Below, piece after piece: positions 6,014-57,158 of a stretch of DNA of 64,000 nucleotides. How positions within the stretch are numbered: position 1 is the stretch's first letter; each line of letters opens with the position of its first letter. The stretch is from Anagrus nilaparvatae (Eukaryota > Arthropoda > Insecta > Hymenoptera > Mymaridae). The DNA is taken from NCBI GenBank assembly GCA_022575985.1, contig JAKSXM010000272.1, forward strand, positions 28,909,501-28,973,500, read 5' to 3'. The notes beneath the pieces are model-generated. The model had not been told where the DNA came from. It was given only the letters and a program-made list of their open reading frames with translations, and searched no databases. Made by a program: the position numbers and the translations under genes.

Positions 6014-6055
6014 TATTTATACTATTCAAAAGTCATTTCACTTTCGAGAAAAAAA
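6014..6055 (-). promoter_or_regulatory. Bipartite promoter-like module A (box, 12 bp, TATA)
   Basis: Read on the minus strand: TTTCTCGAAAGTGAAATG, then exactly 12 bp, then TATAAATA. Transcription would run toward lower coordinates, starting near 5985-5995. One of the family described in the findings; the function is inferred from geometry only. Confidence 0.6.
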
Positions 6056-6639
6056 TTTTCAAGAATTTTAATGTATTTAATTATATAATTATAACTAAAA
6101 ATATCAAAACAAACTAAAATATTTCTCTTAAATTAAATTATAAATTATTATCATTGACAGAATGATCCATTATGTATGTTTGTTCTTTTTTTATAACAAT
6201 TCCTAACCTAGAAATACCACTAAAGCATAGCAATATTTAAGAAAAAATTTTAAATTCGTCAAGGAATTTAAGAAAATACTTTAAAATTTAGTAAAATATT
6301 TTGTATACCAGTGCATATTAACTTATTCACTCAATGAAATTTTGATATAAAAATTCGAACATAACAAAAAATTAAAAAAAAAAAATTTCTTGCAGATCAC
6401 GCAAAAATCTTAAAAAGATAAATCTAATCTATTATTGTAAAGAAAAAACGTCATTATTACAGCATTTAAAAATTTTCAAAATACATCTTAATTACGGAAA
6501 CAATAAGTTCCATCAAAAAATAACTCATGCATTCAAAAATAAAAAATCTTAAATTGTTTTTTTTTAACCTAATTTTATAAAAAAAAAAAAATTTAGTTTA
6601 AAATATGAAGACTTAATTTTCATATATTACACGCACAAT

Positions 6640-7206
6640 ATTGAATGTATAAAAAGATCCATTGCATAATATTTTGGCTTCGCACCGTCTCGCACGATCT
6701 GCAAAAAGGAAGACCCCCCTTATTGTCTTTGGGAAAAAGTCGAGGTTGTAGTTGTGTTATTTGTTTGTTCATCTTCATACAGTCTTATCTATGAAATTTA
6801 GTGGGAGTTACTTTTTTTTCTTATAATTTGTATGAAAAATCCTTAAATAAGATTGGGAGAAACATATAAATTTTTTTAACCCCTTCTATTTTTTCAGTTC
6901 TAAGAAGAGCGCATCCTCTATATATATTCATCACCACCTTAGAAATTCGTTTTAATATTGTATTATCATCTTAAATTTAAACAAGTGTCTGTGCTTTTTA
7001 AAAAATTTTTCGTACAGCAAATGTGCTTTTTTTCGTTAATTTAAATTCATGAGTTCAATTAGAAAAGACACTGCTGATTAACATATAAAATAGTACTCTA
7101 AGTAAAATCAAGGTGCGTGGATTTGGATTATTAATTATTGTGTCTTTATTTTAAAAATTTATTACATGATTTTTTGTTAAATAATAAAAAATTGATATAA
7201 TTACAG
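6640..7206 (+). promoter_or_regulatory. Candidate promoter and 5' UTR of the CPAP1-like gene
   Basis: A TATAAAAAG box lies at about 6648, followed by a locally GC-rich stretch (6670-6760) unlike its surroundings. A second TATATATA lies at 6920. A plausible UTR donor (CAAG/GTGCGT) near 7112 would pair with the acceptor ATTACAG ending at 7206, directly before the ATG. The start site and the UTR intron are inferred and uncertain. Confidence 0.3.
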
Positions 7207-10200
7207 ATGATTTTAAGATTGTATTTTGTTGGCAGTCTTGTAATAATTGGAATCTTATTTCTATACAGGACAATGGCGGTAAGTATTTATTAAATAAAAA
7301 TTAGATAACCAATTTTTTAAAATAATAAGTACCTTTTTTTTTTGATCTGACACGACTTAAAAAATTTCGTAATTTATAACGAAGATGTTATATCACCTAA
7401 TTCTAATTCAATCCTTTCTTTTTTTTTTTATTAAAATTATGACTGGTTTACATTATAATTTTTCACGATTATAATTTATAACCAGAGAGAACTGATAGAC
7501 ATCGTTATTAAAATTTCTTCACTTGATGATAATTTAACCCTTTTTTTTTATTTATGTTTCTTTTTATATAAAAAAAAAACGATTATCAATAATAAATGTT
7601 TATGCAACTTTATGTGAAATTGGACTATGACGATGAGTGAAAAATGATGATTTACGAAATTATTTTTTCGTGATTTAAATTACTTTTTTCAATTTTTATC
7701 TCACGAAAATTATTATTTACTTTTCAAACAATGACAATATAAGCTTTACTTTTTTTTTTCACATAATATTATCTTTTATTTTTTTTTACCTAGATTTTTT
7801 TTTTGTTTAATTTTATGCATATATGTGAGTGTTACCAAATTTTTGACTAATTAATTTACTTTTCAATAATAAAACCGTGTAAAATTTAACACGTATTTTG
7901 TATGTGTTCTCATATTATTTATTATATACTGCAATATTATGTATTAATATTGTTTTTTTTTTTTTACTTTTTTGTATTTCGTGTTAGTTTTTTATTTTCA
8001 CATAGAATTATATTAAATTTTATTATTGTATTAATTTATTTTTATGTGTGTAATGCTGTGCGTATTAAAAATTTTAATTTAAATATATCGAAATATTCTT
8101 TTTGTGGGTAAATTCTAGATAAAATAGGTGTTTTTTAGGGGTTGATTGTAGATTCAATTATTAAGGGTGCAGTATTATTTTATTTTAAAATTATTTTCAA
8201 AATGGATTTTGCAAAATTTTAAATTTACATGTTTGATTTTTAGCATATACAAAATACTTACAATAATTTTTTTAAAGCTCTAAACTGAAACATTTTTTTT
8301 TCAATTTTAATAATTGCAGTTACTTATCAGTAACTGCAACAAGAAAAATTTTCTTAAAAATATTATTTAAAATTTTTCAATTATGGAGCGTATATTTAAC
8401 AAGATTATAAGTAACAAAACATTTTTTTCTTTAAATTAAGCAAAGATATAAGAAAATAAACGATTTTAAATGAAAGCTTTACTTTGAAAATTTTCGTGAA
8501 AAAAGTGAAATGCCTTAAAAAAATTATATATGCATAAGAAAAATGAAAATTATTTATAATACATTCGTGTATTACAGGTATATGCAAATTTTGAAAAATG
8601 CATACAGTTTACTAATTATGTTACATGCATAAAGAAAATATAGCATAACGTGTGTGAAAAAAATTTTTAGGATATTTTATTGAAAAAATAAAGAATCTGA
8701 AAAATGATGTTATTTATTTTGAGCGTTCATATTATGTTGGCAGAGGTGCAACTTAAATTCAAAGAAAACTAGACTTAAACAAGGTTTATATTTAATTGTT
8801 TAGTTTTAAAATTATTAGATATTTTTTATCGATGCGTGTAAAGTAAGAAGAAAATTATAGACGTGAACACTACGAGATAAACAGATTCGTAAACAATTCT
8901 AATACGAAAAAAAATGCCCAATCAAAATTATCTACTAAACTGAAAATGATGATTTTATTATTTGCAGATCACATAGTGATATAAGTTTTATAAAGTAAGA
9001 ATAAAATTGAACCTCAAAAATGTCATTCGAAGATGAACTTTACACAAAAAATTTTATGAATCTATTTTTCCAACTTACAATAATAATTTAAATATGTTAT
9101 AGCATAGTATGGTATATTAATAAAAATTAAAAATTAATATTATAAACGTCTTATATATAGTATTTAAAATTCATTTCACTTTCGAGAAAAAAAATAATTG
9201 TTATGTATTTTATATTTAAATTTCAAACTGTACAGGTGTACATGTATAACATTATAACCAAATATGTGTAATTATAGCTTTTTGGTAAGAGTGTGAATCT
9301 CGTCAATTTATTATCAGATAATCAATTTTCTAAAATCCTAATAATGACATATTTTGTATCAGAGTCTCGATCACAGTTTAAAAACTTTTCTGTTCCCTTT
9401 GCTCAATCCTCCTGGATTTATAAAAATAAACCACCAAGCTAAATTATTAAAATATGTTAAAGATTTTCTTACTATAAAAAAACCATTCCAATATATTATT
9501 CGTAGTTTTTTATTTTGACATAGAATACTGTTAAATTTTAATATTAAATCACTTTATATTTTTATATGTTTAATGTTGTGGAAATTAAAATTTCAATTTA
9601 AATACATTAAAATATTTATTTTAAGGAAAATTCTAGGTATTTTATAGCAATTAGTTGTAGATTCTATGAAATAATAATTTGTTTCATCATTATTCTTAAA
9701 TAGAATTTTTCTAAATTTTCAAATATCATTTTTAAATTTTTAATTTTTATTTTATGAATTGTATATTTAACAGGTTTACAATTAAAAATATCTTTTTTGT
9801 TTTTTTAATTATTATTATTATTATTATTATTATGAATATTTATTTGCCAACTACAAAATATTTTAACACACTCAATTGTCAATTGTTTACAGAAAGTTAA
9901 TATAATTTACAATATATATAAAATTTTATGTGTACTTAAAACTAAAATTAAAGTTAAATAAAAGAAAAATTTACATTAAATTGATTAATTAATACTGAAT
10001 GGTTTTAATCTATACATAGAATTAAATAAAATAAGAAAAATTTACAATAATACTGAATATTAATCAAAGGTGAAATGTAAATTGTTAACAGTAAATAGTT
10101 AACTAGGTAAACAGTAGATATCAATAATACATAGTCAATTACAAAATATTCTCTAATTTATGAAAGTAAAGTCTGATACTCTTTTTGAAGCGAGAATAGG

Positions 10201-13200
10201 ATGGTAAATCCCTTATACAGGGAGGAATCGAATTCCATAGATTCGCGTACTTTATTTGAAAAGAGTATAGACCCCAGTCAGTCGGTGCTAGATTAACCTT
10301 AAGATCTTTATTATGCAAGAATATACTATGAAACTTAAATAAAAGGTTTTAAATGAAAACTTTACTTTGGAAATTTTAGTGAAAAAAGTGAAATGCCTTA
10401 AAAAAATTATATATGCATAAGAAAAATGAAAATTATTTATAATACATTCGTCTATTACAGGTATGGTAGCATACACTTTGAGATCAATCCTCTTATATAG
10501 TAGAGGAATTTATTACATACCCCTCTATATTTTTACCAAGTCCAGAAAGTGACCAATATTATTGTTGAATTCGCTTTAGTATTGTCTTAACATCATTTGT
10601 TACATATTTAAACCTTTTGGACGAACCCCCTTGGGGGTCAAATTGCCCCATTTAGGGGTCAAAAAAAAAAATTGTTTTTAAGCAATGGGAATCGACTCAT
10701 TTTTTAATTCTAAAAGGAAAATGTAGACTTAAATTTTTCAAAAAAATGCATCCCTTTAAAGTTACAGCCCTTAAAACTCTGATTTTCTTGTTATGAACTC
10801 GTATGAACACTATGCATAAGGGGCGCAATCATAAGATTTTGAAAAAATTAAATTTAAAATAAATGAATCTAATTTGTATTTTATGAACTTTAAGTTAAGG
10901 TTTACGTTTTTATGATCTAATACTATAATATAACCCTTAAAATAGCCCTTTCCCCCCTTCACACGCCTTCAAACCCTTTTAATTCTTTTCTTTCCCACAA
11001 AATTTTTTTAAATCATTTATATAAGATGCTGACATTAAATAGAATTTTCATAGGAAATCGTAATAAATTTTATGAGGAAATCGGGAAATTTCTGGAGGGG
11101 GAAAGGGCTATTTTAAGGGTTATATTATAGTATTAGATCATAAAAACGTAAACCTTAACTTAAAGTTCATAAAATACAAATTAGATTCATTTATTTTAAA
11201 TTTAATTTTTTCAAAATCTTATGATTGCGCCCCTTATGCATAGTGTTCATACGAGTTCATAACAAGAAAATCAGAGTTTTAAGGGCTGTAACTTTAAAGG
11301 GATGCATTTTTTTGAAAAATTTATGTCTACATTTTCCTTTTAGAATTAAAAAATGAGTCGATTCCCATTGCTTAAAAACAATTTTTTTTTTTGACCCCTA
11401 AATGGGGCAATTTGACCCCCACGGGGGTTCGTCCAAAAAGTTTAAATATGTAACAAATGATGTTAAGACAATACTAAAGCGAATTCAACAATAATATTGG
11501 TCACTTTCTAGACTTGGTAAAAATATAGATATATAGGTAAAATATGTAATAAATTCCTCTACTAATAAGTGTATACTTTGAGAATGGTTCGGTGTATACA
11601 TTGAGATATGTATTTTGAGAAGGTGAACTTGTACACTTTGAGAAGTAGGCGTATTTTTTTTTTTAATTAATCTTGAATAATAATACATTTAATAAAATAA
11701 TTTGAGTATAAATTACCAGGTCCATAATGATTTGTATTATTTCGATTGATGCGTTGGCGTTGGACGATAAAAAGAATACTGATTTTAATTTGTGTAATTA
11801 TAATAATAATAGAATTAAAAATAAATAAATATAAACAAAGGAATTAAGCATCGATCTCAAAATATACGGTGTACCGTTCTCAAAGTATACATACATCTAA
11901 AAATTACCTTCTCAAAGTATACACCAAAAAAGATTAATATAAATCGGATTGATCTCAAAGTGTTTGCTACGACAGGTATATGCAAATTTTGAAAAATTCA
12001 TACAGTATACTAATTATATTACATGCACAAAGAAAGCAAAACATAACGTGTGTGAAAAAAATTTTTAAGATATTTTATTGAAAAATTAGGCGAATCATTT
12101 TTATTTTTGGGCGTTCACATGCACGATATTATTAACTTAGGACTGAATTTTTTTTTCTACTACTGAGATATGCAGGCAGAAGTGTAAATCTCAATTTAAA
12201 TTCAAACAAAACTACACTTAAACTAGGTTTTTATTTAATTGCTTAGCTTTAAAATTATCTGATATATTAAATTGGTACGTGTAGAGTAAGAAAAAAATTA
12301 TAGACATAAATGCTACAAGGTAAATAGATTCGTTAGCAATTCTAATATGACAGCAAATACACTTTGCGAAATTGTTCATCAAATGAAAATAATGATTTTT
12401 ACATTATGAGGACCACATACAAACATACGGGAAACGAAAGAATAAGAAAAACTGGTTAACGAAAAAAGTTTGAGGTATCTCTTTTTATTTTTGCAATAAT
12501 AATTTAAATATAACACAGCATCGTAAATTAATAAAAATTAAAATATTAAATCGTAAACATCTTATATATTATATCATTTAAAAATCATTTCATTTTCGAG
12601 AAAAAAAATAATTGTCATGTATTTTATATTTGTATCGCAAACTGCAGATGTAACGTATGCATAGCTCTGTAGACACAGTGTGAATCTCGTCAGTTTATTA
12701 TCAGATAATCAATTTACTATATATCCTAATATTAAAAAGTTTTCGCTTTCTTTTGCTTTATATCCTGGATAAAGACAAAGAAACGATAGAATTAAAACTA
12801 ACAAAAAATGTTAAAGGTTTTCTTACTATAAAAAATCCACCCAATTTTGCTATTCGTCGGGTAAGAATTAACATAATAAATTAATGATATCAGCTTATAT
12901 CTAATTAGTAACAGTTCTATTAAATAAGCAAGTAAATTATTCAGAATTTTTAATTGTAACTCTCGTATTTATAGTATTTGAAACTCATTTTACTTTCGAG
13001 AAAAAAATCAGATCAATAGATTATATCGCAACTCATGCTGCATTATAGAATGTATAACATTTTTATCAGTTCTGCAGCAATGTGTTTATTATTGCGGATA
13101 ATTAATTTTTTTTTTAAACCTGCACTGCGTATAAGAATCAAAAAATTTTCTCAGTAATTTTCCTCGTAATTTTCGAGTAATTTTTGTTCGATGCTCCTGG

Positions 13201-16200
13201 ATTTAGAATCACTAGCCACGATATTAAAACTAATATAACATGTAAAAAATCTATCCCATTATAAAATTTGTCAGACAATAAATAATAATTGCATATTTTT
13301 CTAATTAAAATAAACTTAAAATGACGTTATTACAATGTATATATTGAAAAAATACAGGCATTTACTCAGCAATGCTTTTCTTATAAGCTCTTGACAGACT
13401 TGTAGTCGTTGTAAAATTTTGCTGAGATCATTAGAAATTATTCAAAATTAGCTTAAAAAACTTAATTAACATAATTTTTACCTTAAGCTTCCTCTCCACT
13501 TAGAATTGAAAAATTAATTCTACCTGGTGACAAGACTTTACAAGTATACAACTTTGACAAGTTCTCGAGCAAGTTCCTAAAATATTTCGGGACATTACTA
13601 ATAGTCTTTGTCTGGAATCTGTCTGCATAAAATAACTAAAAATTGCTGTATATTTTAAATAATTTACATGAATTAATTATTGCAAAGAAATAAATAAAAA
13701 ATTTTACTACTCATTCTTTTCAACTATATAATATAAAACATACGATAATAAATACAATTAAACTTAAAAAATCGTGTTGCAACAAAAAATTTTAAAAAAA
13801 TCTACGAAAAAAAAAATAGAAAGAACAATAAATATAATATGCAACAAACAACAACAAACAATAAAAGTTTAACTTTTTGTCAAAAACTTAAAAAAAAAAT
13901 TAACATTGTTCGTACGTACGTCAGTTGCAACAATTTCACTGATGCATGTAAAAAAGTGAATAAAAAAGAAATATATTTAGGAGAGATTGTAAAAACCATC
14001 GAGAAAGATCAAAAACTGTTATATTTGTAAAAAAATAGAGGGAGCGTCATTAAAAATAAATAAAAAAATCCCTCTTAATAATTAAATTCAACAAGTGTGA
14101 AGGTTACAGCATCCTATCACGCAACTTTACAATATTAGCAAATATAAACGTGTGTGTATGGCCATTCATTTTCACCGGAAATTACGACCGTGAATTTGAT
14201 ATTGATTAAGTTAATAAAAAGACAAATCATTACATTTTGAGCATATGTATACTAAAATAGTCTTTTAATTATGTTCAACTTTTAATTACTGATATGTTTT
14301 TGTGATAACGAGTAGATTATGTATCTTTTTACTGGGGTTTAATTGTATGAAAATAATAATATCTTGATTTTATTAAATAGAAAAAAAGTAATTTATAAAA
14401 CAAATAAAAAATCCTTTCTAGGTATGAATAAGTGAACCCAAGCTAAACTTAAGCCCTATCTAATAATCCCGAAAAAATAATCTGGTGCAGAAGGGGTGGT
14501 AAGCAATTTATTTGAAATATGAATCTATTGAGTATAAATATATAATTAAAAATTTTTAAAAATCAGATTATTTCTGAATTGAAAATTTAATTCTGAACCG
14601 TCCGATTATTGACAAAAAAAAGAGTTATTTTTTAAAGAACATTTCTTAATTAATAGAATTTAAAAAAAATATGTATTTTAATTTATTACCCATATAATTA
14701 TAAATGGTAATAAAATGATTAGAAAACTTTTTATAAATTAGAATTAAAATTTTAATACAAATTTATTAAAAATATGTATATTATTAAATTATTTGGTTTT
14801 AATGGTAGCATTGGTCGATCTATAAATTTCATAGACAAGGAAATAAAAATGGGGAATTATTAGAAAATATAATCTACAGTTTGGGATTTAAAATTATAAT
14901 GCTTGGTAAACAGCAGAAAGCCCTTCATCATTTTTATAAATTTAAAGTATCATTTTATTATGTCAATATTGAAGAGAATTACAAAAGTATTTATATAAAG
15001 TGTTATCAGTTAGTGAATTTATCTCCTATATTTATAGTATCAAAAAGTCATTTCACTTTCGAGAAAAATTACTTTAATAACTACAAATATGTAGCATAAT
15101 ACAGTAGATGGATCCATAAATTCCTTATTATAAATAAATAAAAACACATTAAATTTTTACTAAAAACTTATTTTAAAAAATAAAAAAAATCAGTACAGCA
15201 TAAATAAATAAATTTAAATAATTTTCTGTTACAGTGTATTATCTCATACCTTGAATAACACACTATATTACATAAACTTTTTTTTTAACACAAAAACTTT
15301 TTTTTTAGTTATACATTGATTCTCATCTCTTATAAAATAAGTTATTGTTATTTAATTTAAAATACATTAAGTATAAAAAAAAAGAGAGTAATTTTCTTAT
15401 TAGATAAAAATATTTAAAAACACTTTCTTTTCTTTACATACCTATATATATTTAAAATGGAATTTGTAATATTTAAGAAAATTTAATGTCTCTCTTTCTT
15501 CTTGAACCGAATTAATTGTTTAGATTAAATAATATAAAAATTTTTTTTTCGTAATTTAATTACGTATAAATAAATTTAAATAAATTCTCACAGAATAATA
15601 AAAAAAAATGCAATAATAATATCTTATTTTTTTTATCAACAAAAAATACAATCTTTTGTATAATTTAATTAAATCGACGCGTGTGTGTGTGTAGTGTATA
15701 ATAAAAAAAAATATATGTGCATAATCGAAGACAAAAGTTTTTTTTTTATCTATTTTTTATAGTAATAATAAAAAAAAAAAATAGATAGTTATCAATTATT
15801 ATAGGTTATGTTTAATTTATATGCAAAATAAAACAATGAATTTTTAGATTTCCGGTGATACGTTTTTATCGACTGAAAATATTATAGTTGAATAAAAAAA
15901 TTTAGAATTATTAAGTAATTGCATAATTTTAATCTTCGTCAATCATTATTAATCATATTAAATAGCATGCATATTATCATCATAAATATTAATAATTTTT
16001 GATTAAATATTTTTTTCGCACGTTCTATTTTTTTTTTTTTTTTTTATGAAAATTAATATGTTGGAAAAAAAATTATTATTGTTTTTGTTCTTGTGGAAAA
16101 TTATTATTTTAAAGCTCAAGGACTTGATTAATTATGAATATATTAGGATAAATATTTATTAGATTCTTATTTAATTGTTTTTAAGGCTGTTTGAATTGAT

Positions 16201-18890
16201 TTGGTTAATAAATTTTTATCGGTCTAGCTCCAGGCAAAGTTTTTAGAATTCTAATAATGACATAAAAATTTAAATATCGATTATAATTTAAGTAAATAAT
16301 CGTTTTTTTACTATATTAAATAAATAATTTGATTTACTGTTGAATAATGATGAATTACTTTCAACTTATATGTACCGATTTTTTTCTCGAAATCAAAATG
16401 ACTTTCAACTAATATATAAAGACCTACTATTTCGAATAATTATCAAAGTACCATAAAAGTAAATTACTAATTTCACTTATATCAAGATTATAATGATTCG
16501 TTTAATATTACATTAATTTTATTAGTTTCATTATCCATCAAGTAATCGTCTTTACGTTTCATGAAAAAATGTTGACCCATAGTTGTTTCAACACTAAATA
16601 AAATGTTTCTATAAGATACCTACTTTACAACTTCAAATATAATTAATTTCATTGGTTCTGATTCTGGTTCTATTGAAGAGCTGAGAAAGAGAACCAGTGA
16701 TTCAAATTTAAACACCCAAATTGGGAAACAATGAAAAATATGACCGATGTGACATCTATAAATTCAATGCAGATTTTATATCGTAACTAACGTTTGTAGT
16801 TTTTTTTGCTGGTTAGTCCCAGCAAAATTAACAGTCAGTTTCCAGATGACGTGTGGGTCATATTAATTCCCAATAAACTAACAATAAATTATTTTAAAAT
16901 ATTTAAATTTTCTTAAAAAATTAAGTTTTTTCTTTGTTCCCAATCAAGTATAGAATATCTAAAGACCTAAAATCAATAAACATTTTTAAAAAATAAGTAA
17001 CTAAGAAACATACAACTTAACCTAACAACGAATTTTTTTATATAAAAGACAAACCCGACGAATTTTTGATAGATCTTTTAGGGAAATATTTAATTAAATT
17101 AATTAAAATGTTATTATGTTATTAAAATGTTAAATTTTAATTAAATATTCTTGGGAGTTGACAGTTTATTATTCAGACACTGCAGATCAAAACAGGCTTT
17201 TGAAATGAAACGAGTGACCCTAAATATTTAAAAGATGAGATTTTGGCCTGAAATATTAATTTTTTTATTTATTGACAAAGTTCACCCTATCCCCCGCAAT
17301 ATGGCCCCCCAGAAAGAGAAGTCATTACAAGTGTATACTCGTATGATATTTTTTTTAATGTCAAATAAAATTTTTTTTCGGGCAAAAACGTATCAATTTC
17401 TGCAAGATTTATTACAAAAATTCTTTTCTCGCAAATGAAATTAGATTTGAATACTATGTAACAAACTGAAATAACATAAAATTCATAGACAATGAAAAAT
17501 TGATTTAATAAATTATAAATTAACATTTAACACATCATTTCTTACCTAATTTCTTACCTAAATAATACTTTGCTTTAGGGGAAATAGTCTTCTAAGAGCC
17601 GCTTCAGAATCTACTATTTTAACAGAAAAAATGCATATATTTTTATTATTCCTAAATTATACTTTTACAATAATCTTTATCCAAAGATAATCTTTAAGAT
17701 AATCTTAGTTTCTTGGGATAAAGGCAAAAAACAGGCTTTAAAAATGAAAATAGTACCTCAAATATCAATTGAGTGAATTTTGCTTAAAAAGTAACTAGAT
17801 ATGCAAAGTATTAATTAGATAAAGACAAAATGAGTCAGACAATATTAATAGTCTAGGTGCCAGCCATACTAATCACGCCCAAAAATTAAAAAATTAAATT
17901 TCTTTTTCCGAGGATAAAAATAGGTTGTATTTATGTTTTTCGGCTCGCTGAACACGAATCCGGGGTCCGTTTTGCAATTTTCGTGGTCAATTTTTTGTTA
18001 TTAACAAATTATTGCAAAATTGGCCAATAAGTTGACCAAGAAATTGGCCAATTTTGCAATAATTTGTTAATAACAAAAAATTGACCACGAAATTAACAAA
18101 ACGGACCCCGGATTCGTGTTCAGCGGGTCAAAAAACATAAGTACCACCTATTTTTATCCTCGGAAAAAGAAATTTAATTTTTGGGTGTAATTAGTATGGC
18201 TGGAGCCTGTATTATAATATGTATACAGAGTAATAATAAAATGTATCTTAAGTAGATAAAGACGAGTTGTGCCAGACAAAATAAACATTTAGTTTTTAGA
18301 TTAATTAATTAATTAATTCGTTTTTTTTAGCAAATTGATGGTTATACCCCTGGATTAGACTACCCAATATACAACAGTGTACCATTCGGTTTGCCTTTTA
18401 CCTGTCGAGGAAGGATACCAGGTTACTACGCTGATCCAGACACTAGATGTCAGGTAAATACACGAATAGATCATTTTTATAAATTAAAATTTTGCAGTAA
18501 AAAAAATTAATTAACTATTTTTTAATTTAAAAAAAGTACAGTTAAATTAGTTTAGTGAAAGCCATACTTGAAATATAATTAAAGTAAATAATAGTAAATC
18601 TAAGTCTGATATAATTTTTAATAAGATCTAATAAAAATTAAACATAGGTTTGGCATTGGTGCATACCTGGTGGAAGAATGTTTAGCTTTCTCTGTCCAAA
18701 TGGTACTGTTTTCAGTCAAACAACTAGAGTCTGTGATTGGTGGTTTAAGGTAAATTAATAATTGAATTTTTTTACATAAACTTAAATTTTTTCTAATTAT
18801 TCCTTTTTTTAGGTCGATTGCAATGATTCGCCAAGATTTTATTCTATTAACGACGATCTTTATAGAGATGCAAGAGGAAATTACATTTAA
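7207..18890 (+). CDS. Secreted single-domain chitin-binding protein, CPAP1-like (four exons)
   Basis: Exons 7207-7278, 18331-18453, 18648-18749 and 18813-18890 join in phase 0 with GT..AG introns and give 124 residues ending in TAA. Exon 1 encodes a hydrophobic signal peptide (MILRLYFVGSLVIIG... ending near TMA). Residues 49-102 form one peritrophin-A/CBM14 domain with cysteines C49-x14-C64-x5-C70-x10-C81-x12-C94-x7-C102, all within the family's spacing, plus the usual aromatics (YYAD, WHW, CPNGTVF, CDWW). One domain with short flanks fits the CPAP1 class (cuticular proteins analogous to peritrophins), which bind chitin in extracellular cuticle. Intron 1 is about 11 kb and full of repeats and promoter-like modules. 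A polyadenylation signal AATAAA lies at 19191. The exon structure and domain are strongly supported; which CPAP1 paralogue it is cannot be told. Confidence 0.9.
8491..8532 (+). promoter_or_regulatory. Bipartite promoter-like module B1 (plus strand, duplication copy 1)
   Basis: TTTTCGTGAAAAAAGTGAAATG, 12 bp, then TATATATG. The box is a diverged form but keeps AAAGTGAAATG and the invariant 12-bp gap. It faces module B2 at 9152, about 640 bp away. Confidence 0.45.
9152..9195 (-). promoter_or_regulatory. Bipartite promoter-like module B2
   Basis: Minus strand: TTTTTCTCGAAAGTGAAATG, 12 bp, TATATATA. Near-consensus copy in duplication copy 1, pointing toward lower coordinates. Confidence 0.6.
9805..10310 (-). 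mobile_element. 5'-truncated non-LTR retroelement fragment with (AAT)n tail
   Basis: This stretch is missing from the first copy of the tandem duplication, so it is an insertion. Read on the minus strand it ends in GGCAAATAAATATTCATAAT followed by about eight AAT units (9807-9833 on plus), the typical 3' end of an insect non-LTR retrotransposon. The other end (near 10310) is GC-richer and contains no recognisable reverse-transcriptase frame. The exact right border and a target duplication could not be fixed. Confidence 0.55.
10374..10415 (+). promoter_or_regulatory. Bipartite promoter-like module C1 (plus strand, duplication copy 2)
   Basis: Duplicate of module B1: AAAGTGAAATG, the same 12-bp gap, then TATATATG. 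The element at 10465 inserted about 50 bp downstream and now separates it from its partner at 12562. Confidence 0.45.
10465..11971. mobile_element. 1507-bp DNA transposon, 26-bp terminal inverted repeats, 8-bp target duplication
   Basis: The left end GGTAGCATACACTTTGAGAT and the inverted right end CGTAGCAAACACTTTGAGAT agree at 24 of 26 positions over the full repeat. The flanks are ACAGGTAT at 10457-10464 and ACAGGTAT at 11972-11979; the uninterrupted copy 1 (near 8574) has the sequence once, proving the empty site. Inside are a giant foldback (10491-11569) and a tail with several GTATACTTTGAGAA-type subterminal repeats (11570-11960). No coding frame is seen, so it is non-autonomous. An 8-bp duplication fits hAT or P superfamilies, but the termini match neither consensus that I know. 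Confidence 0.85.
10491..11569. repeat. Long near-perfect foldback inside the 8-bp-TSD element
   Basis: Arms of about 465 bp (roughly 10491-10960 and 11092-11569) are almost identical inverted copies, with a loop of about 130 bp. Examples: TCAAATTGCCCCATTTAGGG at 10639 pairs with CCCTAAATGGGGCAATTTGA at 11395. A transcript would form a long double-stranded hairpin. Confidence 0.9.
12562..12608 (-). promoter_or_regulatory. Bipartite promoter-like module C2
   Basis: Minus strand: TTTCTCGAAAATGAAATG, 12 bp, TATAATATATAA. Counterpart of module B2 in the second duplication copy. Confidence 0.55.
12966..13007 (-). promoter_or_regulatory. Bipartite promoter-like module D
   Basis: Minus strand: TTTTTCTCGAAAGTAAAATG, 12 bp, TATAAATA. 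Downstream there is no run of four T from the likely start (about 12940) to about 12835, where TTTTTT occurs, so a Pol III transcript of about 100 nt is conceivable. Confidence 0.55.
15029..15067 (-). promoter_or_regulatory. Bipartite promoter-like module E
   Basis: Minus strand: TTTCTCGAAAGTGAAATG, 12 bp, TATAAATA. A perfect match to the box consensus. The sequence about 25 bp after TATA reads TTCACTAACT. Confidence 0.6.
16379..16420 (+). promoter_or_regulatory. Bipartite promoter-like module F
   Basis: TTTTTTCTCGAAATCAAAATG, 12 bp, TATATAAA on the plus strand. The next four-T run is about 95 bp after the TATA box. Confidence 0.5.
17424..17462 (+). promoter_or_regulatory. Weak module G (decayed TATA)
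   Basis: TTTTCTCGCAAATGAAATT is followed after 12 bp by TATGTAAC. The box is good and the TATA weak, so this may be a decayed copy. Confidence 0.3.
17854..18210. repeat. Foldback element just upstream of CPAP1-like exon 2
   Basis: Arms at about 17860-18028 and 18043-18205 are inverted copies: CCAGCCATACTAAT pairs with ATTAGTATGGCTGG, and GAACACGAATCCGGGGTCCG with CGGACCCCGGATTCGTGTTC. The element is about 350 bp, non-coding, and ends 120 bp before the splice acceptor of exon 2. A GATAAAGAC...CAGACAA stretch occurs on both sides (17818 and 18255). Confidence 0.8.
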
Positions 18891-31232: not shown

Positions 31233-31274
31233 TTTTTTTCTCGCAAATGAAATGATCTTTTGAGAATATATAAG
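31233..31274 (+). promoter_or_regulatory. Bipartite promoter-like module H
   Basis: TTTTTTTCTCGCAAATGAAATG, 12 bp, TATATAAG. A CGCAAATGAAATG-type box like modules I, J and K. Downstream sequence is unrelated to theirs. Confidence 0.6.
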
Positions 31275-34004: not shown

Positions 34005-34043
34005 TATTTATAATACTGAGAGGACATTTCTCTTTCGAGAAAC
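34005..34043 (-). promoter_or_regulatory. Bipartite promoter-like module N
   Basis: Minus strand: TTTCTCGAAAGAGAAATG, 12 bp, TATAAATA. The only minus-strand module right of 16 kb. Confidence 0.55.
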
Positions 34044-36065: not shown

Positions 36066-36106
36066 TTTTTTCTCGCAAATGAAATGGATTTCTAAGTCTA
36101 TATAAG
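36066..36106 (+). promoter_or_regulatory. Bipartite promoter-like module I
   Basis: TTTTTCTCGCAAATGAAATG, 12 bp, TATATAAG. Sequence on both sides is homologous to module J (for example GATATTTATTTAATTGCGAAT at 35755 and 37870, AACTATTAATTTTA downstream), so I and J are diverged duplicates of a unit extending at least 350 bp upstream. Confidence 0.65.
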
Positions 36107-38094: not shown

Positions 38095-38133
38095 TATTCT
38101 CGCAAATGAAATACATTTCTAAATATATATAAG
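38095..38133 (+). promoter_or_regulatory. Bipartite promoter-like module J
   Basis: TTATTCTCGCAAATGAAATA, 12 bp, TATATAAG. Preceded by GCCCTCCTAAATTTTAGAATT, a block also seen before modules M and K. The CACTA element inserted about 300 bp downstream, splitting this unit. Confidence 0.6.
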
Positions 38134-38435
38134 TACGAACTATTGTATGTCAATATAAGCGATAAAACTATTAATTTTAAATTTTAATTTGATTAAAATG
38201 TATTTTCATCTATAAGATTAGTTATTTCAGAATTCTTCGTAGAATTTTGTTTCTCTTTTTCAGCTCATTTAGATAATTTAAACTGAAATTGTCAACTTGT
38301 TTCAGTAGATTGAAGGGACTATTTCATGGAGCGTATTCTTTCTAGACTTTAGGTAGAAATAATTAATTATGATTCAAAATTTATTACAATTCTGCTCAAG
38401 CAGAATTATAAATAAATTTTTAGTCATGATTACCA

Positions 38436-41531: not shown

Positions 41532-42133
41532 TTTTATAAAATATTTATTTTTATTAATAAATAATACGTTATAATAAGTTATAATAAGTTATAATCTTGT
41601 AATTTTCTTGTTTCAATTTGTTTAATTGTTAATACTGCACTCGCACGTCAGAAGCACTGCACACACATTATATATTTCGGAGTCGCGGCAATAGTATATG
41701 CTCATATATTTCGGAGTCACTGCTATAGTATATGTTGAGAACTCAATAGAAATAGTTTATGCTTTTAGTGCATATTTTTTTTTTTTTTTTTTAATATAAA
41801 ACACTATAAATTTTTAATTTATTGTTGAATGTATAATATACTGAATTGGATATAATATTGTTCTTTTAATGTTATTCACTTTATATATTATGCGTCCTTG
41901 TTCACTTTTTAATTTTCAAAGTACAAGTTATTGTTTACAAAATTTCTATAACGGGCTTCATTTGAATACCTATGTACACTCGCAAAAGTATAATATACCT
42001 ATATTTTTGCTTTCAACACATTATACCTATGTTAACGAGAACTTGGGCGCGCCTTTGAAATGAATTTATTATACAATTTATAAAAAATCGGTTTAATTCA
42101 AATTAAATGATTTTAATATTATTAAATATAAAA

Positions 42134-44578: not shown

Positions 44579-44917
44579 AGAAAAATTTCAAAAATTCACG
44601 TGTAATCATTTGTTCATATACCTATATTAAACATTTAAAATTTACTATTTTGCTCCAAAATTTAACATAAAAAAACATTAAAACCACTTATTGAAAAATA
44701 TTAATTAAATTTTGTTTCACATAACAGAAAATATATTATACATTTTTAATCTAAAACTTTGTATATTTATAACTAAAGAACGAGAAAAGTAAAAAAATAA
44801 AATATTCACAGAATGCTACCATGATGGTTTGATGATTTTATTATAACCCGAACCTTATATTATAGGGGGCTCTGTAGTAACTTTCGGTGCCTTACTGTCT
44901 TGTTGGTTACGATATTT

Positions 44918-45050
44918 AAGTTGGTATCATTGTTAACAATGCTTTTCTTAAGAGAGAAAGTGGTACCAACCCATTTATACCATTATTGGTCTCACTTGCT
45001 CCCATAAGAATAAGAAAAGTGTACAAAAAATGATACCAACTTAAACACTA
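44918..45050. repeat. Inverted repeat upstream of the transposase gene
   Basis: TTTAAGTTGGTATCATTGTT pairs with the inverse near 45026-45048 (AATGATACCAACTTAAA), and GCTTTTCTTA with AAGAAAAGTG. The loop is about 60 bp and contains GTGGTACCAACC, related to the arm. It lies 340 bp before the transposase start, inside the element, and could be regulatory or an older nested insertion. Confidence 0.6.
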
Positions 45051-45489
45051 TTATGGGCTTCTTTGGTTGCATTTCATGCGGGGTTAAAAATATTTAAAAA
45101 AAAATTCTCGTGTTGTTAATAGTGACTGTGCTTAATTATATATAGTATAAAATCATTTTGTTGATTTTATGAAATATATGTAATTAAAATATTGATTGTT
45201 TTTCATTTGAAAATTAAAATAGAGGATTTACGAGAAGAATTCCTTAAACGTTTTTTTCCTCGTATCAGATTGTTGGCAGAGTTTATTTCCAGTAAATTAA
45301 CTCAATTATTTTTTTATCATTGTGCTTATAAATACAAATTATGAAATAAAAAAAAAATTTTATTAAGTCTATAATTTTATATATACATTTACAATTATAA
45401 TGTTAATGATTAATGAATATTATTAATATTCAAAAAAAAAAATTTTTTTTTTGTATCGCTCGATGATAAGGAGAGAATTTAAAATTATT

Positions 45490-45552
45490 AAAATAATGAC
45501 AACCTTTACGAGCAAAGGTAAAGCTTTTGCTCGTAAAGGTTGTCATTATTTT
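45490..45552. repeat. Perfect 27-bp-arm hairpin in the right end of the CACTA-like element
   Basis: AAAATAATGACAACCTTTAC through GAGCAAA is exactly inverted after a 9-bp loop (GGTAAAGCT). Loss-free arms suggest recent origin or selection. No equivalent is seen in the left end. Confidence 0.85.
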
Positions 45553-45647
45553 AATTATTTTAATTATTTTATAATAATATTGTTAAAGTTTTTCTTCAAT
45601 TTTAACTCTTTATCGGTTTTTATGCTAGTTATTATACAATAAAAAAA

Positions 45648-45829
45648 CCATCCTTTAGCCTAAACAAGAATCCTCTTGCCACAAGAGGAATCCTCTTGCC
45701 GCAAGAGGAATCCGCTTGCCGCAAGAGGATTTCCGCTTGCGGCAAGAAGAATTCCTCTTGCGGCAAGAGGATTTTTTCCTCTTGCGGCAAGCGGATTCCG
45801 CTTGCGGCAAGCGGAAAAATTTTTCAGTG
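45648..45829. repeat. Right terminal/subterminal palindrome array of the CACTA-like element
   Basis: Seven copies of the CTTGCSGCAAG palindrome (first copy CTTGCCACAAG), ending in GCGGAAAAATTTTTCAGTG. The array is about 25 bp shorter than the left one, so unit number differs between the ends. Confidence 0.9.
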
Positions 45830-47042: not shown

Positions 47043-47082
47043 TTTTTCTCGCAAACGAAATGCGTTTCTAAGTATATATAAC
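47043..47082 (+). promoter_or_regulatory. Bipartite promoter-like module K
   Basis: TTTTTTCTCGCAAACGAAATG, 12 bp, TATATAAC. Downstream there is no run of four T until about 47306, roughly 200 bp, which is notable in such T-rich DNA and would permit a longer Pol III transcript. Confidence 0.65.
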
Positions 47083-47368
47083 TATGAGCTATTATATATA
47101 AACTGTAAACTACTACTTTCATGAATAATTTAATTTAGTAAATATATATGTGTAATATTGAACGTTATAGATTATTATTTCCGAATTATTTATCGGTGCG
47201 TCAAATATTCAAACTATATTCAAATTAAACTCTGTTGCTTTCGTATAAAATTCAATAATCTTCCTTAATGAATGTAATACTTCTTGTTTCTATAGGAACA
47301 AATTTTTAAATTCCTTATTTAGAATTATCTATATTATTAAATCCTGAAATTCTTTATGAATAGTATAT

Positions 47369-47489
47369 TACGACCCATGGCCAGAAAAATAAAGAATGGC
47401 CCAAATCGTACGTAAATTACCTTCCGAGGCGAAGCCGAGGATGGTAAACTGCGATTTGGGGCATTCTTTTTTTATGGCCCAGGGTCGTA
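47369..47489. repeat. 121-bp palindromic element, TACGACCC ends
   Basis: TACGACCCATGGCCAGAAAA and GAATGGCCCAAATCG are inverted at the right as CGATTTGGGGCATTC…GGCCCAGGGTCGTA. The loop has CCGAGGCGAAGCCGAGG. GC-rich foldback of unknown family. Confidence 0.7.
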
Positions 47490-50171
47490 TACGATTTTTC
47501 TGCATCAGTCGCGAGAAAACGCGTCTTTTCCGGACGCGCAGCGGCCGGGAAATACGTGCTTTCTGGCCGCTGACCAGAAAAAACTTTTAACGTTAAGATT
47601 AGTGGTTTTCTCCTTCAGGAATCATTAGTTCATTGTTTTTTAAAACAGAATTTGAACGTAATTTAAATAAAATACTTAACCAAAACCATTCCTTTGACAA
47701 GTATTCTCCGATTTAGCTCGATTGGGACTTTTTGAAACACTACTAAAAAATTGTCTCTAGTAGTTTGATAAATACGACAAATATTCCTTGCGTTAAAAGT
47801 ATATGGGAATTTGAATAAATATTTGTTCGGTTTCTTTAAATATTTTTTTTTTCTAGGCTTCGCCTCAGTTGCTAATTAACGTGCGTTCTGGGACATTCTT
47901 TCTTTTGCTCCCTTGGTTAAAAATGTACTATTTTAAAATCTAAGTTGGTCAAGTTTTTTGTATTCGTACTCGAAACAACTAAAAAATCCGTTATCTAATG
48001 TTTAATGTTCCGTTTGTTTGAATTTTAGTTTTAAGGTTATGTCAATGTAATACTGAACTACATTTTAATAAAACTTACGCATCATTGACATGATAATTTA
48101 TAATATTCAAAACCAATAACAGTAACGTCTAAATTAAAATATTCAGAACAGCGTTAAAAATATAATATAGAAAATCAAAAACCATTAGAATAATAAAAAT
48201 TTTAAATTTTCCACTCGGATAAACAATTATTTTTTAAAAACCAGATTACAAATTATAATGCGGTAAATGATCAAATAAATGTTTCTATATCAGAATAAAT
48301 TATACTTAATTGAATTTTCTTGTTTTTGTTTTTATTAAAGCATCCCTTTATTTTTATATTTTTTTAAAAAAAAGATAATACTTTCATATATACACGCAAT
48401 TATCTTATATACGCTTCTTTATATAAAAAAGTAACTTGTTGCACAATTTTTTCAAGGTCTTTTAAATAAATATAATTTTAAAATAAAAAAAAAAATTTAT
48501 ATAGAAAAAAAAAAAACTTTCAACAACTTTTTCCGGATTATATGTTTGTTATATATATTGAGAACTCAAAGTCACGAAAGCATGAAATCTGATGTATATA
48601 TACATAATAATAATAACAATTTATGTATATGATATCGAAAGTTATTTGTCGTCATTGTTGTTTTCTATTTTTCTTATAAATATGTTAAAATTTAATTGAT
48701 GATAATTTTTTTTTACTGTTTTTACTCAGAATTAAGTAAAATTTTTTAATTATCAATATTATCACCTCTCGTTAAATAGTAAATAGACGAATAAATAGAC
48801 GATTATAATAAAAAAATAAATAATAAATAGACGATTATACTAGTGTTTTTTAGCAAAATAAGGATTTCCGGTATATATAAAATTTCAAATTATAAATAAG
48901 TTGTAATATTTTGTTAAAAAAATTGATCATTTACAATGTCGCGTGCTGCGCATCAATTTTAAAAGTATGAAATTCACCATTGTAGAAATTCAAGACATCC
49001 CACAATATACCTTGACATGAAAAATCATTCGGCATTAAAAAAAAAACAATTCTATTCAAGACCATGAAAATTTTTTATTTTTTATTGTGTATCTTCAATA
49101 AATGACGTTTTAAAAAATACAAATTTTTTTTTTTTTTTAATTTTATAAGATTTTATTAAATACTAGAATAATTTATAGAAAAATTAGTTAAAGTGCTGCC
49201 AATGTCGATGAAAGCCATTTTCCTTTCATGGTAATTTTTTTTTAGTCTTGAGAAGTATGTAGTTGCATTAAGTAACTTGGGTAAAGTCGAACGACTTTCA
49301 TTTTTAATATTATAATTCTAATCAAGTATGTAATTACTTTATTTTATTTTTTTTTTTTACTTTGTTATCTAACTTGAGTAATAAATAAATTTTATTATTA
49401 TAAAAATTATAACTTTGAATATAATTTAGATATGAGTTTAAGTAGTAACAGATGTCTGACTGTATCTACTTATTCTGGCTTTATCTACTTAAAACGAGAG
49501 AATACGAAATGTCATGCTTTAAATTATTGAAAATCAATATTTTTATATACACTGTGAGATTTCTGCTCTTAAATTTTCAATTATTTACTTAAAATTTAAG
49601 TAATTCAAGCACAAAAACCTGACAGTGTACCTGTATAGAATACTAAATGGAAAAATTGGATATTGTAACTCAATAATTAGAATAGTTCAGTCTAATTTAT
49701 TCGTAGACAAGAGATTTTTTATGAATATCAGAGTCGAAAAAATAGCAGAAAATTGATTATAAAATAATTAAATTCTAGAAGCTTACATGCCTATAGCCAC
49801 AAAATTACATTTAATTTGAAAGGTCTAATTTTTTAAAGACATTTTTCATTTAGACCTAACTTTAGTAGTTTGAAAAATTAAAACTAAATTACACAGTAAA
49901 TTGACTAACAAAATACCCTGAATATTCAAAGTAAGTTACACAATCAGATTAAAAATAATATTTATTAAGCTTGTATGAAAAAGTAAACACTTCTTCAAAC
50001 GTAATTCAATACGCACTTTGGATTTGATATAAAATTTCAGTGTAATAAATTTATTACACATGTCGTATTAAATATAATTTTTTAACAAATTCAAGCAAAT
50101 TATTTTTAGTACCTTTTTTCTCAGCATTCATGCTGAAAATTTTATTTGTCTTTGCTTGAGTAATCTTTTTT

Positions 50172-53508: not shown

Positions 53509-54480
53509 TTACAACTTTGAATCAAATACAATGACATTATTAACATTAAATATTAATTTAAATAGTATAACTAACAAGACGCATATGCTTACTATAAATA
53601 AAATAATCAATATTTTCATAAAACATAAAATTTTTAATAAAAGCTTTTCAACACTTTCGTAATAAGGTTTAAAATTATCATAATTATTGTCATTATAACT
53701 ATCTTCGTTATACTGATCATCATAATCATTATAATCTTCTCTATCGTAATCTTTGCTACCTGAATGAGAATCGCCCCAATCATCCCAATTTTCACTTTCA
53801 TTTTCATTATTTACAGCAATTTTGTTATTATTTAGACGTAAATCTTCTGATATTAACGTGAAAAAAAATGCGTAAAAAAATATAATCAATTCTTGAATTT
53901 CATCATATTGTGATATGATATTCTGTTCGTTAACGTAATAAAAATCTGAATAATATTCTCTTAGGTGTTCATGCCAAGTTTCATGGTTCCTGTCTGGATA
54001 AAGATCGTATTTAAATTCGTATTTTCTCCTTTGGAAGCTTTCAACTAAAGCTGTTATTTGTATTATTTCGAATATTTTCAATAATTCGTTTCTTTCTTCA
54101 TCAGTTAACGTGGGTTTATTCAAATATTTTCTTAAAATTGGCTTGTAGTAAAAGGAAATATTGTTAATCATATGATATTTAGAGCATTCTAACTTTCTTA
54201 AATTTTGATGATATTCACAATAATAATAGGTAGTTTTCAATGTAAATTCGTTACATCTTCTATTGTAAATAAATGCTTTGCATGTGTTATTTCTAAGTAC
54301 GTTTGGATAATAAAAATAACAAAAGAATGTGTAATACAAATACTTTAAAAATAGTAAAAATTTATAAAAATCATTAACAATTAATAAATAAAACGTTCTT
54401 ATAAAATTTATTTTTTTATCTATAGCAAATAATATTTTTAAGAACATGTCAAAGTAGTGTTTGATAGTGAATAAACACAA
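53509..54480 (-). CDS. Orphan 323-aa membrane protein with Cys/His motif
   Basis: By far the longest open frame outside the transposon, uninterrupted, minus strand. Met1 or Met12 may be the start. Hydrophobic segments lie at about 25-57, 197-211 and 280-312; the last is the clearest transmembrane helix. Between the first two, C67-x8-C76-x11-C88-x2-H91 (ending YYYCEYH) resembles short CxxxxxxxC…YCxxH metal-binding motifs. Residues 228-270 are an Asp/Asn/Tyr-rich, low-complexity acidic stretch. No signal peptidase site or known domain is recognised and no introns are needed. The 450 bp upstream are unusually GC-rich. A gene seems likely from its length; its function is unknown, and lateral or viral origin is conceivable but unsupported. 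Confidence 0.6.
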   Translation of the reverse strand: MCLFTIKHYFDMFLKILFAIDKKINFIRTFYLLIVNDFYKFLLFLKYLYYTFFCYFYYPNVLRNNTCKAFIYNRRCNEFTLKTTYYYCEYHQNLRKLECSKYHMINNISFYYKPILRKYLNKPTLTDEERNELLKIFEIIQITALVESFQRRKYEFKYDLYPDRNHETWHEHLREYYSDFYYVNEQNIISQYDEIQELIIFFYAFFFTLISEDLRLNNNKIAVNNENESENWDDWGDSHSGSKDYDREDYNDYDDQYNEDSYNDNNYDNFKPYYESVEKLLLKILCFMKILIILFIVSICVLLVILFKLIFNVNNVIVFDSKL

Positions 54481-54930
54481 AAAACGAGGATATTCTTATT
54501 CGGGTTTAGCCTGTTGGCCAAACTCATTTACTGGTGACATAATTTCGAAAATAACTAAGTCCTTTTATTATTCAAATGCTGGTTTATTGACTTATAATAA
54601 TATTGGCCGTGCTTAGATCTCTTAATTAACGGTCTGTTGATTGTTTATAATTTCTAGTGTCAGTCAGATCTGTCTTTCAGGAGCTTTCGTGAGAGCTTTT
54701 AAAGGGTTTGTGCTTGGGGAATTGAGGAGAGGACAATTGCGCGTAATTGGATTAACGCGGAAAATTTAGTGTCCTTAGTAACAGATTCTCCAATCATTGG
54801 TAATTAGTCTGTCAAGCGTATGATGGGGATGGCTTTATTCCCACCTCAAGTACTTCGTGTGAGGTCTTATTATGCACTTTCTTGCACGTGCGGTTTCTCG
54901 GAATGATGGTGCTGATGAAGCATTTTTAAT
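54481..54930. other. GC-rich island upstream of the orphan membrane-protein gene
   Basis: About 450 bp of clearly higher GC than anything nearby, free of long A/T runs. On the minus strand a 14-codon frame, MSPVNEFGQQAKPE, ends about 60 bp before the 323-aa frame begins. On the plus strand a frame around GAFVRAFKGFVLGELRRGQL is open for about 30 codons. Neither is a recognised protein. Could be the promoter and leader of the minus-strand gene, or a captured foreign fragment. Confidence 0.35.
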
Positions 54931-56164: not shown

Positions 56165-56200
56165 TAAAGGCCTCGATAAAGGCCTCGATAAAGGCTTCGG
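56165..56200. repeat. 12-bp tandem repeat, three copies
   Basis: GATAAAGGCCTC repeated three times, the last with TTC instead of CTC. Confidence 0.9.
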
Positions 56201-57118
56201 TTTGCTTACAAGTTATGAATTGACAATTTTAACCTTTAAGTATTGGGATGTTGGAAAACTTTTGGAATACAATATAAATTTGCGAAAATGTCAGTAAATT
56301 ATATATGTCGTTATTTTGTAAATTAATTTCTTAAGTAAGTTTATGTTAAAAAGTAGCTCTATGCAAAATTCGCAGATGGTGCATTTTTCATCAGTTTGTC
56401 AGATAAATGTGCTCTATACAACTCTGTTAAGAAATTTCAAATAAAGCATATATTAATATATTATAAAATTTTCTATACATAAATGAATCTCTGTATCAAC
56501 ATGAAGTGTAAAAAAGGACCTTCGGACACGCAATATTTACACGAGGAAATGAAAGCCAGTTTTGGTTTATATATCTAGTTAAGAAATAATAAAAATGGTT
56601 TTGACGTATAGAAATTTTTTTCATTTTGAAGGCTATCAAGTCTACACTATACACGTAGTCACGTAATAAATATATACTATTATACGTATGTACCTTTATA
56701 GATTATTCCGAAGGCGTAAATTTAAAGCTTTTTTTATGAAAATTGCATGCATAATATTTAGAAGTGTGGTAGACGTTATGATGCAGTAAAATACTCGGTA
56801 AAATAAAAAGACGATCAACCGATATATTAAAAGTCGTACATATTTATTCTATTTTATCAGATTTATTATTAAATTATGCAATAAGCTTGTTTGAGAAGTG
56901 GTTTAGATGTTTCCTTTTTTAAATTATATGCCTTCCTTTTGTATCTTAATTAAAAGAAGAAAATATATATACTTGTATTTTATTTAATTTTAATTTTTTT
57001 AAATAATAGGAAACTAAGAATTATTAGTATAAATGGTTTATTGATTGGTAATTAAACGAAAAGATATTGCCTCAAAAATTAGATAATTATAATATAATAT
57101 CGTAGTATTTGGATAAAT

Positions 57119-57158
57119 TTTTTCTCGTAAACGAAATGATTTCACAAGCTTATATAAA
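57119..57158 (+). promoter_or_regulatory. Bipartite promoter-like module L
   Basis: TTTTTCTCGTAAACGAAATG, 12 bp, TATATAAA. A TCAGT initiator-like pentamer lies 9 bp after the TATA box, and the large foldback begins 60 bp downstream. Confidence 0.6.

Follow-up and report, generated by a model that had tools for sequence, protein, structure and literature searches.

A short promoter-like module, in which an 18-bp box is followed after 12 bp by a TATA box, recurs throughout this genome in thousands of copies. The spacing within it is rigid, its copies cluster locally and share little flanking sequence in the loci that were compared, and it resembles the U6 promoters of the same genome. The reading we prefer, and which we consider about evenly balanced, is that this dispersed, genome-wide family represents thousands of snRNA-type promoters, each of which would start its own short non-coding RNA.

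The window, by which we mean the whole 64-kb stretch of DNA that was analysed, was scanned on both strands with the pattern TTTCTCGMAARTGAAATG-N12-TATA, allowing up to three mismatches. Thirteen matches were found, on both strands, between positions 6018 and 57154 (Table 1), whereas 100 dinucleotide shuffles of the window gave a mean of 0.01 matches and a maximum of one. The 12-bp-spaced pair is thus enriched over shuffled sequence. The original prediction had described at least 14 modules between 6014 and 57158. This family is real, is found on both strands and is far more numerous than was stated there, but it has 13 strong members in that interval, not 14. Two further modules that had been listed as weak (G and M) have no certain counterpart, and the best weak site that we found (at 3012) lies outside the interval.

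A weight matrix trained on the 13 window modules gave them scores of 38.4-51.2, which are optimistic because these modules were its training set. The next-best sites in the window scored 13.3 (3012, minus strand), 9.2 and 8.1, and no site scored 8 or more in 264 kb of third-order Markov sequence. In the 100 kb to the right of the window, two sites outside the training set scored 35.3 (+162973) and 32.8 (+64048, both in window coordinates); in the 100 kb to the left the top score was 11.4, with nothing near 32.8-35.3.

Table 1. Modules in the window, with mismatches to the scanned pattern and weight-matrix scores
Position	Strand	Mismatches	Score	Remarks
2979..3012	-	4 (box)	13.3	Weak module-like site, doubtful member
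6018..6051	-	0	50.1	Box TTTCTCGAAAGTGAAATG + 12 bp + TATAAATA
9156..9189	-	0		Within duplicated segment (partner: 12603 module)
12570..12603	-	0	40.9	Duplicate of 9189 segment
12970..13003	-	1	48.6	
15033..15066	-	0	48.1	
16383..16416	+	3	43.5	
17425..17458	+	2	42.9	TATG instead of TATA
31237..31270	+	0	49.4	Box TTTCTCGCAAATGAAATG + 12 bp + TATATAAG
34009..34042	-	1	38.4	
36069..36102	+	0		
38096..38129	+	2	39.1	Transposon-like element starts ~290 bp downstream
47045..47078	+	1	51.2	
57121..57154	+	2		1.4-kb inverted repeat starts 64 bp past first T of TATA

Genome-wide, the same pattern with up to three mismatches matched 8,229 times (4,069 + 4,160), compared with 64 matches (39 + 25) for a reversed-pattern control. 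Along one contig (C1) the exact copies are clustered and one strand predominates. Eight 5-kb samples from elsewhere in the genome contained no module, which is little informative because about 0.7 would be expected at the genome mean. A viral origin was rejected, as the module pattern, even when widened slightly, had no exact counterpart in a collection of viral contigs.

When the window was compared with eight other loci, little was held in common outside about 40 bp of module. The exceptions were a repeat pair (L041/L042) that carries its modules at 96-98% identity, a repeat common to the window and one other locus (L046), and a few short matches. Within the window, the segments of the 9189 and 12603 modules are 68% identical across 983 bp, and alignments show that the 36069 module resembles those at 38096 and 47045 immediately past the TATA as well. 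Homology is otherwise largely confined to the module in the window, the eight loci and 44 downstream stretches, in agreement with the original prediction that box and TATA are conserved while flanks diverge. Because so little is shared beyond the module, with no element-length sequence common to the window and the eight loci apart from the one repeat pair, we rejected the idea that the modules are a transposon family. A GC-rich repeat near 47.4 kb was also set aside: it follows modules in L046 and L065 too, yet it occurs in several module-free flank stretches.

To describe the spacing we took 39 box-like matches (up to four mismatches) from the window and its right flank. The TATA started at an offset of 12 from the box in 15 of the 39 and at an offset of 14 in nine, while each of the remaining offsets from 0 to 29 accounted for 0-4 matches. 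In our reading, the nine offset-14 cases fit TATATA at offset-12 sites. The predicted 12-bp gap is rigid in the window and right flank. The gap had also been described as unconserved, and this did not stand: among 44 modules, 42 have a T at spacer position -9, 36 a T at -10 and 41 an A at -4, and 26 carry either C or G at -1. TATA itself is present in 43 of the 44 modules and TATG in the other, a figure that must be read with the fact that modules were selected by a TATA-containing pattern or matrix. Counting 11 bp on from the first T of TATA, the base is G or C in 19 of 24 modules and in 12 of another 20 copies (p 6e-4), or 31/44 when all are pooled.

The U6 promoters of this genome provide a comparison with genuine snRNA promoters. 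Their likeness to the module was reached in none of 400 column permutations, and that of the box alone in 2 of 600. For six non-redundant U6 promoters taken singly, p was 0.07, <0.003, 0.05, 0.03, <0.003 and 0.18; the last is not significantly module-like and those at 0.07 and 0.05 are borderline. A gapped alignment gives C[AT]CG[CA]AA..(T)GAAA as the core common to modules and U6 promoters. At the register of the module, 10-12 of the 18 box positions are mismatched in the 10 U6 promoters, a number that falls to 6-9 when their cores are aligned 4 bp further upstream; none of these 10 loci contains a module weight-matrix match above 3.0. In nine of the 10, the CGCA core stands 29 bp from TATA (the tenth lacks the core), compared with 25 bp in modules. 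Judged from the alignments, the U6 box therefore appears to be related to the module box but is different, with a core-to-TATA distance 4 bp longer. A PSEA unlike the module box upstream of the species' snRNA genes had been named as a point against the original prediction. This is in part what we found for U6, because its box is another sequence at another distance, yet the two remain detectably alike. Thus rigid spacing and U6 likeness favour an snRNA-type promoter, while the box itself is not that of U6. The TATA of the U6 genes precedes the gene by 31 nt in nine of 10 loci and by 30 nt in one, and for this reason we place the expected start of module transcription about 30 bp past TATA.

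Downstream of the modules, we looked for a recognizable product. Neither the window nor 200 kb of its flanks contained an Rfam match at gathering score, and the U6 loci contained none except U6 itself; the predicted lack of an snRNA sequence after the modules was thus borne out in the window. At E up to 10 there were 19 Rfam matches in the window, none at gathering score, and the best two (E 7e-9 and 3e-7, to microRNA families) were discarded since they lie inside fold-back repeats. Structured short RNAs were rejected as products, as the downstream stretches are slightly less structured than their own shuffles: over 60 nt beginning at the expected start, the mean z was +0.74 (15 modules) compared with -0.05, sd 1.31, in 60 control windows, and the corresponding values were +0.43 and -0.15 for 120 nt and +0.21 and -0.32 for 200 nt. 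Hairpin RNAs fared no better, the inverted repeats listed being equally dense in the module-free left flank (25/100 kb) and in the window (16/64 kb). Inverted repeats lie 0.4-1.4 kb downstream of the modules at 17425, 12603 and 31237.

The composition downstream is AT-rich, the bins between +20 and +79 of 44 modules having a GC of 0.17-0.20 compared with 0.27 in random left-flank stretches. No prominent initiator was seen near +31, where the top C/T-A/G step is weak and occurs in 17 of 44 modules. The first TTTT past the expected start comes after a median of 37.5 nt (32 in random sequence) and falls within 66 nt in 31/44 modules (73% of random sequence); the first TTTT is thus not delayed, and no Pol III terminator pattern was seen. 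Beyond +46, TTTT starts are fewer than in random stretches; AAAA is fewer too, and composition is uncorrected in this comparison. A search for shared downstream motifs used 14 modules, the 12603 module being omitted as a duplicate, in eight scans. The best were ACTGACAT at +38 to +200 in seven of 14 (p 1.6e-6, ~0.04 when corrected for 22,865 candidates) and AACTATTA at +38 to +110 in nine of 14 (p 4.0e-6, ~0.05 when corrected for 11,820 candidates). Both fail correction for the eight scans and some of the copies are related, so neither was kept.

The modules might instead be ordinary Pol II core promoters of long non-coding or protein-coding genes, with a dedicated factor site beside the TATA and coding exons that are far away or short. 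We consider this rather unlikely. A TATA, an upstream site and AT-rich surroundings would suit any Pol II promoter, and the conserved +11 position could be a core-promoter element. However, the 64 kb contain only two stop-to-stop frames of at least 120 aa, one of them within a transposon-like element, no convincing first exon was seen by eye after modules in the stretches read, and Pol II activator sites do not usually occur with fixed spacing in about 8,000 copies. It is less probable still, and in our judgement unlikely, that the modules belong to type-3 Pol III genes encoding many short RNAs, with the box as PSEA and a TATA as in insect U6. Insect Pol III promoters are reported to consist of PSEA plus TATA (PMC9841428), nearly every module has its TATA, and a PSEA-to-TATA gap of 12 bp is the Drosophila U6 (Pol III) form, 8 bp being the Pol II form (PMC4227766). 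On the other hand, the first TTTT is not delayed, there is no downstream structure, and the 4 bp by which the module falls short of U6 in core-to-TATA distance equals the Drosophila difference between Pol II (8) and Pol III (12) (PMC4227766).

Two further explanations seem very unlikely to us. One is that the modules mark a chromatin or recombination landmark, such as an entry site, a replication origin or a boundary. Clustering and strand bias on C1 and the AT-rich surroundings would fit such a role, but the rigid TATA spacing and the U6 likeness are promoter features. The other, to which we give marginally less credence, is that they are mobile-element relics or retroposed snRNA-like genes that spread through the genome with their promoter. 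The L041/L042 repeat pair and the 9189/12603 duplicates would fit this. Outside such pairs, however, the homology of the compared copies is largely module-only, and the spacers vary widely among the 100 exact copies listed. Old relics are also unlikely to have retained a 34-bp core and yet lost all adjoining sequence.

Among known systems, nematode 21U-RNA loci share AT-rich surroundings with the modules. The letters of the nematode Ruby core differ from those of the module box, and we take the U6 of this genome to be arthropod-like, not nematode-like. The 21U-RNA (type I piRNA) loci have a motif derived from the SNAPc/snRNA element and, in Caenorhabditis elegans, form clusters of megabase size (PMC6436959); more than 15,000 loci are counted in PMC7917550. 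Each of these loci (Ruby motif) is a promoter for a single transcript, and there are thousands of them (PMC6436959), as we infer for the modules; in both systems very many copies each have their own downstream sequence. They differ in that nematode Pol II snRNA and piRNA loci are described as lacking a TATA box (PMC6436959), whereas the modules have one. Insect type-3 snRNA promoters (PSEA + TATA; PSEA + PSEB) are similar in having one box rigidly spaced from the TATA and, through the U6 of this genome, in the shared core. The modules are unlike them in their different box, in a core-to-TATA distance shorter by 4 bp than that of U6 in this genome and in existing in thousands of copies, and in the window no known RNA follows them. 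The hymenopteran telomerase RNA promoter is a type-3 snRNA promoter that drives a non-spliceosomal transcript (PMC9841428); it serves a telomerase RNA gene, in contrast to thousands of module loci.

Based on these results, we propose a model for the modules as promoters of many short RNAs, in which the factor, the polymerase, the start site and the product are what we infer. A SNAPc-like factor may bind the 18-bp box and would be placed rigidly against TBP on the TATA 12 bp away. Together they would direct one polymerase to a start about 30 bp downstream, and each copy would give rise to its own short, unstructured non-coding RNA. If each copy makes its own unstructured RNA, the downstream sequence could diverge freely, with only box, spacer and TATA being kept. 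The likeliest products would be small-RNA precursors comparable to those of the nematode 21U-RNA (piRNA) system. We also suggest, more tentatively, that an arthropod-like animal may have turned an snRNA promoter, independently of nematodes, into thousands of single-gene piRNA-like units, with the TATA kept, a box unlike that of U6 and possibly a specialized SNAPc variant.

To our knowledge, motif-dependent small-RNA genes have been described only in nematodes. In the open-licence literature, searches with the module motif strings returned nothing on snRNA or small-RNA promoters by title, and no insect or arthropod counterpart of SNAPc/snRNA-linked piRNA genes appeared by title among the matches listed. 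About 8,000 copies, with no known RNA gene behind those examined, hint at a large unrecognized set of small RNAs. If the modules are active, gene finders would be overlooking transcription units by the thousand in this genome, which would also offer a natural test of how the choice between Pol II and Pol III depends on the sequence of the box and its distance from TATA. Motif-dependent small-RNA genes would then have evolved twice, each time from the same snRNA machinery.

Thirteen matches to the module pattern (an 18-bp box, a 12-bp spacer and a TATA) were found in the window at up to three mismatches, compared with 0.01 expected. Thus, the family claimed in the original prediction is real, but its strong members number 13 and not 14. 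The window has a GC content of 21-29% in 4-kb stretches and belongs to an assembly of 488.7 Mb in 393 contigs. With a weight matrix derived from the same 13 modules, which are therefore its training set, the window modules scored 38.4-51.2, and the right 100 kb yielded two additional sites, at 35.3 and 32.8. The next best site in the 264 kb scanned reached 13.3, and the left 100 kb held no site near the module level. At the weak site 3012 on the reverse strand, a doubtful member, CTAGATGGCGC lies directly upstream of the box.

The box-to-TATA spacing is rigid. Among 39 box-like hits, the TATA followed at an offset of 12 in 15 cases and of 14 in nine, and every other offset occurred 0-4 times. 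This agrees with the predicted fixed gap of 12 bp, but the gap is not unconserved, as had been proposed. We compared 44 modules: the 13 of the window, two from the right flank, nine from seven other genome loci and 20 of 100 listed exact copies, with locus L041 omitted as a near-copy of L042. The spacer is constrained to T at -9 (42/44), A at -4 (41/44) and T at -10 (36/44), and carries C or G at -1 in 26. A G or C also stands 11 bp past the first T of the TATA in 31 of the 44 (p 1e-10); this preference was first spotted in 24 modules (19/24) and holds in the 20 further copies (12/20, p 6e-4). At one genome locus (L055:1-130), two modules of the same orientation, the second slightly altered, lie one after the other in a 130-bp stretch.

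Genome-wide, the pattern is in more than hundredfold excess over its reversed control: with three mismatches allowed, it matches 4,069 times on the forward and 4,160 times on the reverse strand, compared with 39 and 25. A uniform spread would place about 1.1 modules in 64 kb, so that the 13 observed correspond to a Poisson p of 1.6e-10, but the window was chosen because many had been seen. Contig C1 carries 71 of the first 100 exact copies listed. The C1 interval from 21.17 to 38.64 Mb holds 67 listed copies, a density of 3.8 per Mb compared with 0.19 per Mb in the part preceding it (p 7e-19), with 58 of these copies in plus orientation (p 7e-10); both p values are overstated because the interval was picked after the list was viewed and because duplication can generate adjacent copies (as in M9189/M12603 and L041/L042).

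A mobile-element family is an unlikely source of the modules, as more sharing of flanks would be expected than BLAST shows between eight fetched loci and the window. In this comparison, little common sequence was found outside the module, as the predicted divergence of the flanks implies; the exceptions were the repeat pair L041/L042, a repeat that L046 has in common with the window, and a few alignments of short length. When the downstream sequences of the 44 modules were compared with one another, 10 pairs matched at E 1e-3 or better, two of them known duplicates.

We found ten U6 genes, with 48 of 60,977 candidates scored and more possible; their sequence looks arthropod-like. Each is preceded by TATATAAG or TATATAAA, at a distance of 31 nt in nine and 30 nt in one. 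Six promoters, all on contig C195, have CGCAAGCGAC(A/G)AAACG upstream, three others have a CACGCA core in common, and L010 is divergent. Farther upstream, most U6 genes have a sequence resembling GCTAGGTGGC that may be a distal element; CTAGATGGCGC at the weak site 3012 may be compared with it.

The predicted U6-type architecture was upheld in part. The box sequence fits poorly without gaps (10-12 of 18 mismatches in the module register, 6-9 with the cores aligned), and a matrix scan of the U6 loci gave no match above 3.0. In gapped local alignment, however, the modules resembled the ten U6 promoters, which are not independent, at a mean of 14.5 compared with 11.0 for column-permuted modules (sd 0.71, 0/400); the box alone gave 12.9 compared with 9.2 against the same non-independent ten (2/600). 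After the near-copies L005, L007, L008 and L009 were dropped, 300 shuffles for each of the remaining six gave p values of 0.07, <0.003, 0.05, 0.03, <0.003 and 0.18. Among 157 flank sequences preceding TATATAA, 9, 1, 7, 2, 1 and 35 scored at least as high, and the highest scorer is itself a module; these controls are lower in GC (0.23 compared with 0.41), a difference from which the shuffles are free. Modules and U6 promoters have in common a core of C[AT]CG[CA]AA with (T)GAAA after it, and the CGCA of this core lies 29 bp from the TATA in nine of the ten U6 promoters compared with 25 bp in modules. In Drosophila, the gap next to the PSEA is 12 bp where a Pol III TATA follows and 8 bp where a Pol II PSEB follows (PMC4227766), the same 4-bp difference. 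On one reading of the alignment, this hints that the modules are spaced in the Pol II manner, with a TATA-like sequence as their second element.

As predicted, no snRNA was recognized after the modules: Rfam gave no family at gathering score in the window or its flanks, and a tRNA search of the window found none. Across the 44 modules, bins between +20 and +79 had a GC content of 0.17-0.20, compared with 0.27 in random left-flank stretches. The 60 nt from the expected start (+31) were slightly less structured than shuffles (mean z +0.74 for 15 modules compared with -0.05 for 60 control windows), an effect weaker at 120 and 200 nt. There was no strong initiator signal near +31, and the first downstream TTTT was not delayed. 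Two stop-to-stop frames of at least 120 aa were found in the window; the longer has 23 relatives of no stated function, those with names coming from two moths and one sea cucumber (27-29% identity). If transcribed from module 57121, the adjacent inverted repeat would yield a long hairpin RNA, but its placement may be due to chance because inverted repeats are common nearby.

Repeats, fold-back elements and frames in the window
Feature	Position	Strand	Remarks
Fold-back element, 1.1 kb	10492-11569		Between modules 9189 and 12603
Fold-back element	17842-18220		Contains a microRNA-family match under its gathering score
Transposon-like element	38421-45829		Inverted GC-rich repeats at each end; an 817-aa frame inside
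817-aa frame, longest of the window	42134-44587	-	Inside the transposon-like element
GC-rich repeat	47360-47950		Recurs in several flank stretches and downstream of modules in loci L046 and L065
328-aa stop-to-stop frame	53509-54495	-	No Pfam match at E 0.1
1.4-kb inverted repeat, 94% over 1412	57215-58618		Begins 64 bp past the first T of the TATA of module 57121

We propose that a SNAPc-like factor on the long box would dock onto TBP at the TATA, and that this docking would need rigid spacing. To our knowledge, few other animal factors impose a rigid box-to-TATA distance. Searching the literature for the module motif strings gave no title on such promoters. According to PMC6436959, the nematode 21U-RNA motif is derived evolutionarily from the SNAPc motif; nematode Pol II snRNA and piRNA promoters lack a TATA, whereas the modules have one. 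The motif letters are also unlike. Thus, the modules are laid out like the nematode 21U-RNA system, but membership in it is not established. The presence of thousands of such putative promoters with free downstream sequence suggests that their putative transcripts would be under no shared sequence constraint, as for nematode 21U-RNA precursors.
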